Shown: positions 6,359 to 40,746 of the stretch, one piece after another
How the letters are laid out: every line of letters starts with the position of its first letter
How positions within the stretch are numbered: position 1 is the stretch's first letter
Origin: Pseudomonas sp. GD03919
Lineage (GTDB): Bacteria > Pseudomonadota > Gammaproteobacteria > Pseudomonadales > Pseudomonadaceae
DNA: 64,000 nucleotides
Assembly (NCBI RefSeq): GCF_029814935.1
Contig: NZ_CP104582.1
Span: 3,782,001-3,846,000, forward strand
Reading direction: 5' to 3'
The notes under the pieces: model-generated
Databases searched by the model: none
The model's input: the letters and a program-made list of their open reading frames with translations, nothing else
What the model was told of the DNA's origin: nothing
Made by a program: the position numbers and the translations under genes

Positions 6359-6404
6359 ATTGAGGTTGCTCCCAACGCGGCGCTTGGGCACAATTGCGCC
6401 CGTC

Positions 6405-6592
6405 CTAGGGGAGTAGTCTCCCGCGAGCGCCCTGCTCGCCCGGCATGCGTCAACACACTTGCTCCGCAGAGCATGGCGCATGCGACCCAAGGCCCTCATA
6501 GAGAGGCCTGAGGTTTGACAAGACCTATGACACGTACAACCTCACCCGGGGCGGGAAGGTCGTTCGTGTCATAAGCCGTGTCGACCCGCCCC
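6405..6592 (+). promoter_or_regulatory. yybP-ykoY manganese riboswitch
   Basis: The 5' landmark GGGGAGTAG at 6409 opens a long structured leader that ends with a helix pairing near CCCGGGGCGGG and GACCCGCCCC. Start codon 6606 follows after 13 bases, so the last helix can control ribosome access. The Pseudomonas form, including the TTTGACAAGACCTATGACACG segment, is familiar upstream of this gene. The family senses Mn2+ and turns on exporters such as the gene that follows. I cannot score it against a covariance model here. Confidence 0.85.
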
Positions 6593-12151: not shown

Positions 12152-12254
12152 CGCGGCCTCCTTGTGACTTGGCGGTATAATCGCCGGCCTACTGCTCACT
12201 CTGTTAAGCAGACCTCACTTCAACCTTAGCCGTTCCAGAACACAAGAGAGCATG

Positions 12255-13415
12255 ATGGGCGCATTCGATGCCATCCGACCCTATGCCGACGCAGAAGTAC
12301 GCCCCGTGCTGGCGCGCCTGCTCGCCGATCCGGCGTTTCTCGGCACCCTTACCCGTTTTCGCTTTCCGCGCCTGGCTGGGCCTTTAGGCTGGCTGCTCAA
12401 GCCGCTGATCGCCGCGCGCCTACGCAGCGAGTTCGCCAACGTCGACTCGGTGGCCAAGCTGCAGGAGAAGATCGAACCCTATATCGATCGCATCATCGAA
12501 CATGCCAGCGATGGCATCAGCTACTCCGGCCTGGAACACCTGCAAACCGGTAAGCCGTACCTGTACCTGGCCAACCACCGCGATATCGTCATGGACCCGG
12601 CCTTCGTCAACTACGCCGTCTACCATGCCGGCCTGCAGACACCACGTATCGCCATCGGCGACAACCTGCTGCAGCGCCCCTTCGTCAGCGACCTGATGCG
12701 CCTGAACAAGAGTTTCATCGTGCACCGCTCGATCAGCGGCCGACGCGAGAAGCTGGCGGCTTATCAGCTGCTGTCGGCGTATATCAATCACTCGATCCGT
12801 GAAGACGGCGAGTCGATCTGGATCGCCCAGGCCGAAGGCCGCGCCAAGGATGGTGATGACCGCACCGACTCGGCCATCCTCAAGATGTTCCACATGAGTC
12901 GCAAGGACGAGCCGTTCGCCGAGGTCATCGACTCGCTGAATCTGATCCCGGTATCGATCAGCTACGAGTACGATCCCTGCGACCTGGCCAAGGCCCGCGA
13001 ACTCTGCGTGCGCGCCGCCACGGGCAGCTATACCAAGGCGCCGGGCGAAGACGACGCCAGTATCGCCCTGGGCATCACCGGTTACAAAGGGCGCGTGCAT
13101 CTGCACTTCAGTCCGCCTGTCGCCGGTCTGGAGGACACCAAGCAGCTTGCTCAGGAGATAGATCGTCACATTCTCGGCCAGTATCGCCTGTTCCCCGTGC
13201 ACTACCTGGCCTACGCCATGTGGGAAGGGCGCGAGGCCGGGCTGAACGTGCCAGCAGCAAGCGACGTATTCGATGCCGCGGAACTGGCCAAGGCCGAAGC
13301 GCAGTGGAACAAGCGCCTGGCCGCCTGCAGCGCCGAGGAGAAACCGTTCCTGATCCTGCAGTACGCCAATCCGGTGCGCAATCAGTACCGGATCAAGGCG
13401 GGTCTGCCTCTGTAA
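12255..13415 (+). CDS. PlsC-like acyltransferase of unknown substrate
   Basis: A 386-residue protein (one residue longer from the tandem ATG at 12252). The central block NHRDIVMDPAFVN (107-119) is the acyltransferase box. It reads H-x5-D (His108, Asp114) rather than the standard H-x4-D. A later IAQAEGRAKDG segment matches the second acyltransferase block, and ISISYEYDP-type text (LIPVSISYEYDPCD) matches the fourth. It probably moves acyl groups onto a phospholipid or related acceptor at the inner membrane face. Its terminator has been split by an inserted element. Confidence 0.8.
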   Translation: MGAFDAIRPYADAEVRPVLARLLADPAFLGTLTRFRFPRLAGPLGWLLKPLIAARLRSEFANVDSVAKLQEKIEPYIDRIIEHASDGISYSGLEHLQTGKPYLYLANHRDIVMDPAFVNYAVYHAGLQTPRIAIGDNLLQRPFVSDLMRLNKSFIVHRSISGRREKLAAYQLLSAYINHSIREDGESIWIAQAEGRAKDGDDRTDSAILKMFHMSRKDEPFAEVIDSLNLIPVSISYEYDPCDLAKARELCVRAATGSYTKAPGEDDASIALGITGYKGRVHLHFSPPVAGLEDTKQLAQEIDRHILGQYRLFPVHYLAYAMWEGREAGLNVPAASDVFDAAELAKAEAQWNKRLAACSAEEKPFLILQYANPVRNQYRIKAGLPL

Positions 13416-13429
13416 GAACCCCGCGCTAC

Positions 13430-13637
13430 AAACGAAAACGGCAGCCATCAGGCTAATGCTGATCAGATAAGTTCGTCACCACCCCCTCCTACTTGCAGTA
13501 GAGGGGGCGCTTTTCGTAGGAGCCAGCTTGCTGGCGATGCTTTTTATGGCGGACCGCCGGCAAGCCGGCTCCTACAAAGATCGAGTGCAACGGCTTAACT
13601 GACTGGCATTAGCCATCAGGCTGACGTTTTCGTTTAT
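13430..13637. terminator. Bidirectional terminator split by an inserted element (copy 1)
   Basis: The left arm AAACGAAAACGGCAGCC and right arm GGCTGACGTTTTCGTTT pair with a single mismatch. Without the intervening element they would form one strong terminator with loop ATCA. The element sits in the loop, with GCCATCAGGC repeated on both sides (13444-13453 and 13612-13621). Confidence 0.8.
13454..13611. mobile_element. Terminator-targeting element, copy 1 (158 bp)
   Basis: The left end is TAATGCTGATCAGATAAG; the right end read inward is TAATGCCAGTCAGTTAAG. It is flanked by the perfect 10-bp duplication GCCATCAGGC. The interior has a GAGGGGG/CCCCCTC hairpin and a GTAGGAGCC...GGCTCCTAC REP palindrome. 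It carries no ORF, so it must be mobilised in trans if it moves at all. Two further copies are at 17431 and 40579. Confidence 0.8.
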
Positions 13638-15902: not shown

Positions 15903-17399
15903 ATGGCGCACAACGATTCCCAAAGCGTAGATGTGGTGCTGGTTGGCGCCGGCATCATGAGCGCGACCCTGGGCGTATTGCTCAAGGAACTCAATCCCAG
16001 CCTCACGCTGGAAGTGGTAGAGCTGCGCGAGTCCGGCGCAATGGAAAGCTCCAACCCCTGGAACAACGCCGGCACCGGTCACGCCGCGCTGTGCGAGCTG
16101 AACTACACCCCGGAAGGGGCTGACGGCAGTATCGACATCAAGAAGTCGGTCAGCATCAACGCCCAGTTCGAAGAGTCCAAGCAGTTCTGGGCCTACCTGA
16201 TCGAGAAAGGTGCGATCAAGGCGCCAAAGACCTTCATCAACCCGGTGCCGCACATGAGCTTCGTGCGCGGCAACAGTGGTATTGCCTTCCTCAAGAAGCG
16301 CTTCGAGGCGCTGCGGCAACATCACGCCTTTGCCGAAATGGAATACACCGAGGATCGCGCCACCATCGCCGAATGGGCACCGCTGCTGATTCCGGGCCGT
16401 GACGCCAACGAGCCACTGGCGATGACCCGCGTACAGGCCGGCACCGACGTCAACTTCGGTGCCGTCACCGAGCAAATGCTCGCCCACCTGACCAATCAGC
16501 CCAACGCCAAGGTCACCTGCAACCAGAGAGTCACCGACCTCAAGCGTGATGGCAAAGGCTGGCTGGTGGACATCAAGGACACCCGCTCCGGCGCCACCCG
16601 CCAGCTCAGAAGCAAGTTCGTCTTCCTCGGTGCCGGCGGTGGCGCGTTGCCGCTGCTGCAGCGGTCCGGCATCCCCGAAGGTAAAGGCTTCGGCGGCTTC
16701 CCGGTGAGTGGCCAGTGGCTGCGTTGCGACAACCCGGAAATCGTCAAGCAGCACCAGGCCAAGGTCTACAGCCAGGCTGCCGTGGGTTCGCCGCCGATGT
16801 CGGTGCCGCACCTCGATACCCGCGTAGTCGATGGCAAGAAGTCCCTGCTGTTCGGCCCGTATGCCGGCTTTACCACCAAGTTCCTCAAATACGGCTCGTT
16901 CCTCGACCTGCCGCTGTCGGTACGCCCCAACAACCTCGGCCCAATGCTGGCAGTGGCGCGCGACAACATGGACCTGACTCGCTACCTGATCAAGGAAGTG
17001 ATGCAGTCCGAAGCGCAGCGCCTGGAAACCCTGCGCGGCTTCTACCCCGAAGCCAAGGCCGAGGACTGGCGCCTGGAAGTGGCCGGCCAGCGCGTGCAGA
17101 TCATCAAGAAGGATCCGAAGAAAGGCGGCATCCTGCAATTCGGCACCGAACTGGTAGCAGCTGCTGACGGCACCATCGCTGCCCTGCTTGGCGCCTCGCC
17201 GGGCGCTTCGGTGACCGTGTCGATCATGCTCGACCTGATTCGCCGCTGCTTCCCCGAGCAGGCCAAGAGCGAAGAATGGCGCAGCAAGCTGGACGAGATC
17301 TTTCCGGCCATGGCCGACGTCCTGTCGCAGGATGCTGAGCGCTTCCATGCGGTGCAGAAGCAGTCGAACCAGCGCCTGCAACTGGACATACCTAGCTGA
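15903..17399 (+). CDS. mqo: Malate:quinone oxidoreductase
   Basis: A 498-residue FAD enzyme that oxidises malate to oxaloacetate and passes electrons to quinone at the inner membrane, completing the TCA cycle without NADH. The FAD-binding motif [14 protein letters not shown] lies at about 11-24. The family segment [20 protein letters not shown] follows near 52-71. The [10 protein letters not shown] and [15 protein letters not shown] segments are characteristic of MQO, and the length is normal. It is convergent with creA; the terminator between them is split by element copy 2. Confidence 0.96.
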
Positions 17400-17411: not shown

Positions 17412-17625
17412 AAAAAACCGCCCCTCGGGGTAATGCCAGTCAGTTAAGGCTGTACGCGTTTGGCTCCCCTCTACCGTTTACGGGAGAGGGGCTGGGGGAG
17501 AGGGCCGAAATACCGCGAAACGGCCATTTACCCCTCTCCGAACATGGCTCGCCAGAGGGGCGAGGGGACTGATCGTAGGCAGCCGGCGCTTAACTGATCA
17601 GCATTAGCCCCTCGGGGCGGTTTTT
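17412..17625. terminator. Bidirectional terminator split by an inserted element (copy 2)
   Basis: The arms AAAAAACCGCCCC and GGGGCGGTTTTTT pair perfectly and flank the element. They would form the shared mqo/creA terminator if the element were removed. GCCCCTCGGGG is duplicated at 17420-17430 and 17607-17617. Confidence 0.85.
17431..17606. mobile_element. Terminator-targeting element, copy 2 (176 bp)
   Basis: The ends are TAATGCCAGTCAGTTAAG on the left and CTTAACTGATCAGCATTA on the right, so it is inverted relative to copies 1 and 3. A perfect 11-bp duplication flanks it. The interior differs entirely from the other copies: purine-rich GGGAGAGGGG and CCCCTCTCC blocks that can pair into a long hairpin. 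No ORF. Confidence 0.85.
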
Positions 17626-17642
17626 TATGGGTGCCGTTCGAG

Positions 17643-25158: not shown

Positions 25159-25307
25159 GTAGCAGTCACCGCAAGGTACCTGCCCACTGAGGCAGTCCAA
25201 CTTTCGCGGTACGCCCAGCGTGCCGCACCCGGCCTCGCCGGATTTTACAAACCCGCCGACCACACAGAGTCGGCAAGTTGGCCATCAATTGTTAGGAGAG
25301 ATCGACA

Positions 25308-40104: not shown

Positions 40105-40437
40105 ATGGAAGAGCGTCGCCAACACAGCCGCCATGGCACCGAAATGCAGCTGGAGGTCTTCGACCTGAACAGCGGCCAGCGCCTGGGCCGCATCGTCGAC
40201 CTGTCCGCCGATGGTTTCATGCTGTTCAGCGATACGCCGCATACCGCCGACGCCGTGCTGGAATGCCGCCTGGTCTGCACCTCGAGCGCCACCGAGGTAC
40301 AGGAAGTACGCCTGGGTGCCGATTGCCTGTGGAGTCGCCCCGGGGCTGATGGCCAGCATTGCTGGGCAGGTTTCCATATCATCGATCTGGCCGAGGACCA
40401 GGCCAAGGCACTGGAAAGCCTGCTGGCCAGGCTTTAA
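40105..40437 (+). CDS. PilZ domain protein
   Basis: A 110-residue single PilZ domain. The c-di-GMP-binding motif RRxxxR is present (RRQHSR, 4-9), as is D/NxSxxG (DLSADG, 32-37), so it should bind c-di-GMP. It lies ten bases after the DUF1631 gene. Its partner or target is unknown. Its terminator region is interrupted by REP and by element copy 3. Confidence 0.88.
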   Translation: MEERRQHSRHGTEMQLEVFDLNSGQRLGRIVDLSADGFMLFSDTPHTADAVLECRLVCTSSATEVQEVRLGADCLWSRPGADGQHCWAGFHIIDLAEDQAKALESLLARL

Positions 40438-40556: not shown

Positions 40557-40746
40557 ATGAAAAACGGAGCCCTGAGGCCAATGCCGATCAGATAAGCTTG
40601 CCAAAGTGGTCTTTCGTAGGAGCCCCGCCCCGGGGCGAAGCTTTTCAATCGCGTATCGCCCTGGTTCGCGGCGGGGCGCCGCTCCTAACCATTGGCAGCG
40701 GCGACGCTTAACTGACTGGCATTAGCCCGCAGGCTCCGTTTTTCAT
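40557..40746. terminator. Bidirectional terminator split by an inserted element (copy 3)
   Basis: The arms ATGAAAAACGGAGCC and GGCTCCGTTTTTCAT are perfect inverses 160 bases apart. Without the element they form a terminator shared by the PilZ gene and ettA. The loop region is duplicated as GCCCTGAGGC (40569-40578) and GCCCGCAGGC (40725-40734). Confidence 0.85.
40579..40724. mobile_element. Terminator-targeting element, copy 3 (146 bp)
   Basis: Ends CAATGCCGATCAGATAAG and, read inward from the right, TAATGCCAGTCAGTTAAG, in the same orientation as copy 1. The interior is a GTAGGAGCCCCGCCCCGG...GGCGCCGCTCCTA REP palindrome. The flanking duplication has two mismatches in ten, so this copy looks older. 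Confidence 0.8.

Follow-up and report, generated by a model that had tools for sequence, protein, structure and literature searches.

Prokaryotic MITEs are short, non-coding elements with inverted ends and target duplications. In the parts of one review of them covered here (PMC10969869), terminators are mentioned as structures that a MITE can form or look like, and not as sites of insertion. For the subgroup of the IS4 family that includes Escherichia coli IS4, the 2008 survey by De Palmenaer (PMC2266710) noted a strong arm specificity, and its main text contains neither the word "terminator" nor the word "MITE". Hairpin targets have been described for IS1272 and TnSha1 of the IS1182 family, where 5 of 7 sites were RNA-seq-confirmed terminators; according to the sections of that paper used here (PMC4923244), IS1272, which belongs to another family than IS4, inserts blunt into the stem, deleting part of the target and leaving it unduplicated. 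ISRm22, an IS4-family member, inserts in palindromic REPs, which are often located between convergent genes, and ISPsy8, inserted where a REP hairpin has its axis of symmetry, gives a 3-bp repeat (Tobes and Pareja 2006, PMC1525189, as excerpted); for ISRm22 and the other REP-targeting ISs of that excerpt, the target is a REP, not a terminator. Elements of the IS4 family, MITEs and ISs that target hairpins are all known already. Searches of an open-access library did not turn up the combination described here, nor any statement that IS4-subgroup elements target terminators; subscription papers and ISfinder lay outside the search.

Here we analyzed a 64,000-nucleotide stretch (the window, bases 3782001-3846000 of the 4.66-Mb genome of Pseudomonas sp. 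GD03919) and followed its short inserted elements into the rest of the genome and into other bacteria. We conclude that these short elements, judged by their ends, are very probably non-autonomous relatives of a resident IS4-family IS, whose transposase likely inserts both into the tips of predicted intrinsic terminators, and that a full-length copy would put its own two predicted terminators in place of the one that it interrupts. The IS shares with the IS4 subgroup, as presented in the parts of PMC2266710 used here, the transposase domains, the DDE and YREK spacing, duplications of about 10 bp and a single frame; the terminator target, the terminators at both ends and the short elements are added to that description.

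Results

Three short elements split predicted terminators in the window

The 18-bp ends matched the window at 6 places (at most 3 mismatches; 0.12 expected), and none of 100 shuffles reached 6. These matches bear out an earlier note on this DNA, which had described three elements with shared 18-bp ends, giving their coordinates and hairpin arms (Table 1); the left end of element 3 starts CAATG and has one mismatch. The two target copies were identical at 10/10 positions for element 1 (GCCATCAGGC) and at 11/11 for element 2 (GCCCCTCGGGG) and agreed at 8/10 for element 3 (GCCCTGAGGC/GCCCGCAGGC). The 10- to 11-bp duplications that had been claimed (8/10 for the third) were thus present at all three sites, and at each of them a predicted terminator was split, as expected from the claim that the elements lie in terminator loops. 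Their position between convergent genes was also confirmed at all three sites for the likely flanking frames, which we picked from a mechanical ORF list: 12252-13415(+)/13648-13944(-) for element 1, 15903-17399(+)/17643-18104(-) for element 2 and 40105-40437(+)/40758-42425(-) for element 3.

Table 1. Positions of the three short elements, their target copies and the arms of the split predicted terminators in the window
Feature	Position	Strand	Remark
Short element 1	13454..13611	+	158 bp; family n = 6, 157-159 bp
Element 1, left target duplication GCCATCAGGC	13444..13453	.	Single copy in G076
Element 1, right target duplication GCCATCAGGC	13612..13621	.	
Element 1, left arm of split predicted terminator	13430..13443	.	
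Element 1, right arm of split predicted terminator	13622..13635	.	One mismatch vs left arm
Short element 2	17431..17606	+	176 bp; family n = 7
Element 2, left target duplication GCCCCTCGGGG	17420..17430	.	
Element 2, right target duplication GCCCCTCGGGG	17607..17617	.	
Element 2, left arm AAAAAACC of split predicted terminator	17412..17419	.	
Element 2, right arm CGGTTTTTT of split predicted terminator	17618..17626	.	
Short element 3	40579..40724	+	146 bp; family n = 30
Element 3, left target copy GCCCTGAGGC	40569..40578	.	Probably diverged after insertion
Element 3, right target copy GCCCGCAGGC	40725..40734	.	Same as empty sites of G012 and G008
Element 3, left arm AAAAACGGA of split predicted terminator	40560..40568	.	
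Element 3, right arm TCCGTTTTT of split predicted terminator	40735..40743	.	

Orthologous sites are empty or differently occupied in relatives

We sought the orthologous regions in 115 relatives via the flanking frames (30 loci read per search, own genome included). Empty orthologous terminators with a single target copy were found for all three window elements, so the duplications passed the empty-site comparison that the earlier note had set for them. For element 1, the empty site of G076 was ACGGCAGCCATCAGGCTGCCGT, in which the 10-mer GCCATCAGGC occurs exactly once; for element 2, G012 and G076 carried AAAAAACCGCCCTTCGGGGCGGTTTTTTT, whose core GCCCTTCGGGG differs at one base; and for element 3, G012 and G008 carried CGGAGCCCGCAGGCTCCG. 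Because this last site contains GCCCGCAGGC, the right copy at element 3 is probably ancestral and the left copy probably changed. Blunt insertion of the IS1182 type, with deletion in the hairpin, does not describe these sites, which have duplications and whose empty counterparts are intact.

That the elements instead belong to a conserved RNA structure or to a repeat of the REP type, with no insertion involved, is scarcely credible. Elements 1 and 3 do contain hairpin pairs that we take to be REP-like (13516-13575 and 40616-40688, of the type GTAGGAGCC...GGCTCCTAC), but none of the three elements overlapped an Rfam family at the gathering threshold, and the duplications, the empty sites and three unrelated interiors all mark the ends as part of an insertion, as the earlier note had supposed, rather than of a fixed RNA. 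Elsewhere in the window, Rfam matched a Pseudomon-groES RNA (25159-25274) and a Mn2+ riboswitch (yybP-ykoY, 6396-6516).

In G077, a full-length IS adjoins the left half of the element 1 terminator and that of the element 2 terminator, the flanks having been exchanged through rearrangement. In G024, the terminator orthologous to that of element 2 contains a different element, of 77 bp. Three genomes therefore hold three different elements at this one terminator, most simply explained as separate insertions. In G077, a distant terminator contains a block orthologous to 13.6-17.4 kb of the window, including the 15903-17399 frame, with an IS copy on either side, and one IS with hybrid flanks remains at the donor site (L226 and L227, G077:C1:2772000-2782000 and 780500-785000). 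This is an IS-bracketed translocation of a host block. The outer duplication (TCCTTCGGG plus one mismatch) makes composite transposition possible, but the single IS with hybrid flanks at the donor site is a better fit to an excision followed by re-entry, with the IS copies recombining.

The host genome carries three short families and a full-length IS4-family IS

With no more than 3 mismatches allowed, the ends matched the host genome 123 times, and a backwards-pattern control did so 7 times. Among the matches listed, 54 stretches were fetched, seven of which yielded no element, and 49 two-ended elements were extracted: 43 short copies, five full-length IS copies and one element enlarged by a nested insertion. 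The short copies form three unrelated families (n = 30, 7 and 6), with lengths of 141 to 178 bp for 42 copies and 350 bp for one, and target duplications of 9 to 12 bp (at most 2 mismatches, mostly 10 bp) flank 44 of the 49 elements. In a search at no more than 1 mismatch, 14 of 38 relatives had the ends.

The search for a full-length IS with the same ends that had been proposed thus turned up five copies, of 1,426 to 1,427 bp, belonging to the IS4 family. Four of them match the whole 443-aa transposase without stops, and the fifth matches residues 1-377 only. The transposase matched the profiles NF033592 (284.6 bits, cut-off 115), PF13006 and PF01609. Its D133 and D209, located by the VDG and FDRGF motifs, and its E314 are separated by gaps of 75 and 104, in line with the IS4 spacing D(60~110)D(100~150)E; the Y(2)R(3)E(6)K motif is present as YSQRWEIELGYREMK at 307. 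No relative with a solved structure was found by sequence at E ≤ 0.001.

The short elements have the features of MITEs, being short and without a transposase, with a target duplication and with inverted ends common to an autonomous IS; 17 to 22 bp of end sequence is held in common with the full-length IS by 39 of the 43. We considered whether they are internal deletions of the resident IS, which was not supported, as the IS interior had no match in any of the 43. Since only the ends are common to the IS, another transposase could have moved the short elements, and an IS4-type transposase of the same end specificity, now lost, would account for interiors that have nothing in common with the IS and for the Pseudomonas genome G018 (below), where short copies are numerous and no transposase matched at E ≤ 1e-50. 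We regard this origin as unlikely, given that in the host genome many short copies agree exactly with the IS over an 18-bp end and lie at targets of the same kind.

Two loci showed secondary events. At L054:752-2336 (G000:C1:1752651-1754235), whose host site fails the terminator scorer, an element of the 146-bp type has been enlarged to 1,585 bp by a nested insertion of about 1.4 kb near its REP-like part, with a 367-aa frame that by eye resembles an IS110-type transposase. At L084 (G000:C1:4521827-4522151), near-identical 157/158-bp elements stand in tandem with three copies of GGGCGCTGCC, through either tandem duplication or repeat insertion into a duplicated target.

Most copies in the host genome are centered on predicted terminators

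We scored a site as a predicted terminator when it had a stem of at least 5 bp, an axis no more than 3 bp from the duplication center and a T or A tract (4 in 6). By this measure, 34 of the 49 copies were centered on predicted terminators (5/5 full-length, 29/44 others), compared with 186 of 14,572 positions (1.3%) and 22 of 483 GC-armed palindromes in the flanks under the same scorer. At a stricter stem threshold, the counts were 30/49 versus 49/14,572 positions and 9/483 GC palindromes, so that 15 of the 49 copies (19 at the stricter threshold) lay outside scorer-called terminators. An earlier scorer, blind to stems with pairing A/T tracts, likewise gave 34/49. Most of the other copies therefore do lie in predicted terminators, as the earlier note required. 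The hairpin axis was offset from the duplication center by -0.1 ± 0.58 bp. Requiring strict arm symmetry about the exact duplication center (4 of 6 pairs plus tract) recovered only 22/49 sites, because the axes are shifted by half a base to one base.

Insertion without targeting, followed by selection that spares only intergenic copies where terminators happen to be, would agree with the convergent frames at the three window sites and with the sites of E. coli IS4, 7 of 8 of which lie outside annotated genes (below). We consider it improbable, since terminator-like hairpins make up about 1-2% of the sampled positions and survival does not place a duplication within about 0.6 bp of a hairpin axis.

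At the 26 sites with an exact 10-bp duplication, the target consensus was about AAAA-GG-GCC-N4-GGC-CC-TTTT, and a transposase that reads nothing but this pattern of A tract, GC core and T tract in the duplex would strike terminators as carriers of it. Motif-bearing insertion sites were terminators in 16 of 21 cases at the stricter threshold, however, versus 4 of 22 motif-bearing sites in the window at the looser one (27 starts, neighbors merged by hand). Moreover, arm complementarity over all 49 copies was 3.71 versus 2.67 of 6 for permuted arms (0/2,000 permutations reached it); nominal P values take no account of how closely the copies are related. For the 43 short copies it was 3.84 of 6 versus 2.72 with partners permuted, the largest of 2,000 permutations giving 3.26; this control used each copy's duplication length, and a fixed 10-bp version gave 2.42 rather than 2.72. 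Because the true arms pair better than permuted ones, the sites are real inverted repeats beyond a symmetric consensus, and reading of the duplex motif alone seems to us a rather doubtful account.

Siting extends to other genomes and to E. coli IS4, with one exception

In other genomes of the genus, we examined 27 loci and found ends in 21, for copies of 989 to 1,429 bp. Predicted terminators were the site of 8 of 10 copies with clade-A ends and of 11 of 11 with other ends; the two failing clade-A copies (L124 and L133) are those of G077 whose flanks have been exchanged. Arm permutation gave a weak signal for the 10 clade-A copies (9/2,000 reached it). Among the 11 copies with other ends, ten transposases were 35-38% identical to that of the host IS, and the one at L111 was 66% identical.

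A short family in G018 counts against the generality of terminator siting. Its 20 stretches (L085-L104) held 17 elements of 152 to 178 bp (about 155) with near-identical ends, of which 1 lay at a predicted terminator, and the arms paired no better than permuted ones (260/2,000 reached it). Many copies had no clear duplication, three (L087, L089 and L093) had perfect 10- to 11-bp duplications outside terminators, and a loose motif placed 6 of 17 next to REP-like sequence. A search of G018 for a matching transposase gave none at E ≤ 1e-50. The same ends do not always mean the same target, as this family is rarely at terminators.

We then turned to named Gammaproteobacteria, where the best 80 matches gave 79 loci; 56 were tried and two had no ends, leaving 54, and the 23 loci left out were mostly contig-end cuts or partial matches. 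Predicted terminators held 49 of these 54 IS4-like copies, 46 with tracts on both sides (control, 526/28,609). Thaumasiovibrio contributed nine near-identical copies to the 54. Arm pairing was 4.69 versus 3.29 when permuted (largest permuted value, 3.72), and duplications of 9 to 13 bp were present in 50/54. The set includes Pseudomonas, Pokkaliibacter, Idiomarina, Vibrio, Colwellia, Thaumasiovibrio, Aliikangiella, Shewanella and Erwinia, and it overlaps partly with the genus set (L112 and L289 are the same site).

The transposase of E. coli IS4 is 52% identical to that of the host IS. We read 17 of its copies among 2,739 matching records, which reduced to eight distinct sites, and 7 of 8 were at a predicted terminator by the scorer alone. 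Clear passes were adhE/tdk, fieF/ogrK, nupC/pdeA, yihL/typA, zapB/rraA and gspK/glcA; the nanX site (K-12 and B) passed weakly, and the bcsG coding site failed.

The full-length elements carry predicted inward-facing terminators at both ends

At the stop-codon end of the host IS, the inverted repeat can pair with an inverted copy next to it in an inward-facing hairpin with a T-run. The other end has a hairpin, also facing inwards, whose T-run runs into an ATG, which in the host IS is the transposase start; the T-run leads into an ATG in 27 of 30 distinct start-side stems. An inward-facing predicted terminator stood at each end in 54/54 named copies versus about 3/54 when base-shuffled, and the host IS and E. 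coli IS4 have predicted terminators at both ends too. In 53 of the 54, one terminator is the inverted repeat folded on its neighboring copy; the exception is the copy in Erwinia, whose stop-side hairpin is not made by the repeat itself. The downstream arm on the stop side scored 11.9 and 11.1 of 12 for the element's own TIR variant and 8.9 and 9.0 for the other common variant. Inner pairs of the 30 start-side stems occur as AT, TA, GC and CG, which, with stems selected partly by pairing, speaks for the variety of pairs rather than for an absence of mismatches; a strict start-side stem was absent in one of 56 elements. Ten distant-clade copies had the start-side terminator in 10/10, TIR fold-back in none and another stop-side hairpin (within 140 bases) in two.

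The earlier note had weighed read-through between the convergent genes against replacement of the terminator by the element's hairpin. Because inward-facing predicted terminators stand at both ends, a full-length insertion would replace the terminator that it splits; for the full-length IS, replacement is thus favored and read-through less likely. At the 25 short copies in stricter-threshold terminators, the element had a terminator of its own on 4 of 50 site-strands, and the outer arms were predicted to pair on all 48 site-strands with at least 4 outer pairs. We also compared the short elements with other DNA in how well they keep the arms paired. Arm pairing was 0.87 for shuffled inserts versus 0.91, and 0.82 for flank DNA (2/23 below 0.5), with no sign of adaptation; since shuffled inserts were nearly as good, the pairing stems from the site and not from the element.

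Discussion

Targeting of terminator tips by the resident transposase, which we favor, could work through symmetry: the twofold axis of a dimeric transposase would align with the dyad of a twofold-symmetric hairpin target, placing the insertion at the hairpin tip, and the same transposase would move the short elements in trans. Each transcript entering a full-length IS would meet a terminator within about 30-80 bp, so termination may survive there on the terminators that the IS brings, and at short copies it may survive through outer arms still able to pair round the insert. A T-run terminator ending on the transposase ATG would keep transposase expression low.

More tentatively, transposases of the IS4 subgroup, that of E. 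coli IS4 included, may recognize the terminator as a structure, either a hairpin extruded from DNA or one exposed where RNA polymerase is terminating, and exchange it for their own two terminators. They would then represent a widespread parasite that goes into sites neutral for transcription and mends the damage it causes.

Terminator targeting is a possible reason for the arm specificity noted for subgroup IS4 in 2008. It would also be a strategy for harmless insertion, in which the ends of transcription units are entered and replacement terminators are brought along, and two copies in neighboring terminators would bracket whole transcription units. Terminators are countable targets, and therefore both the targeting and its neutrality would be testable in E. 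coli with IS4.
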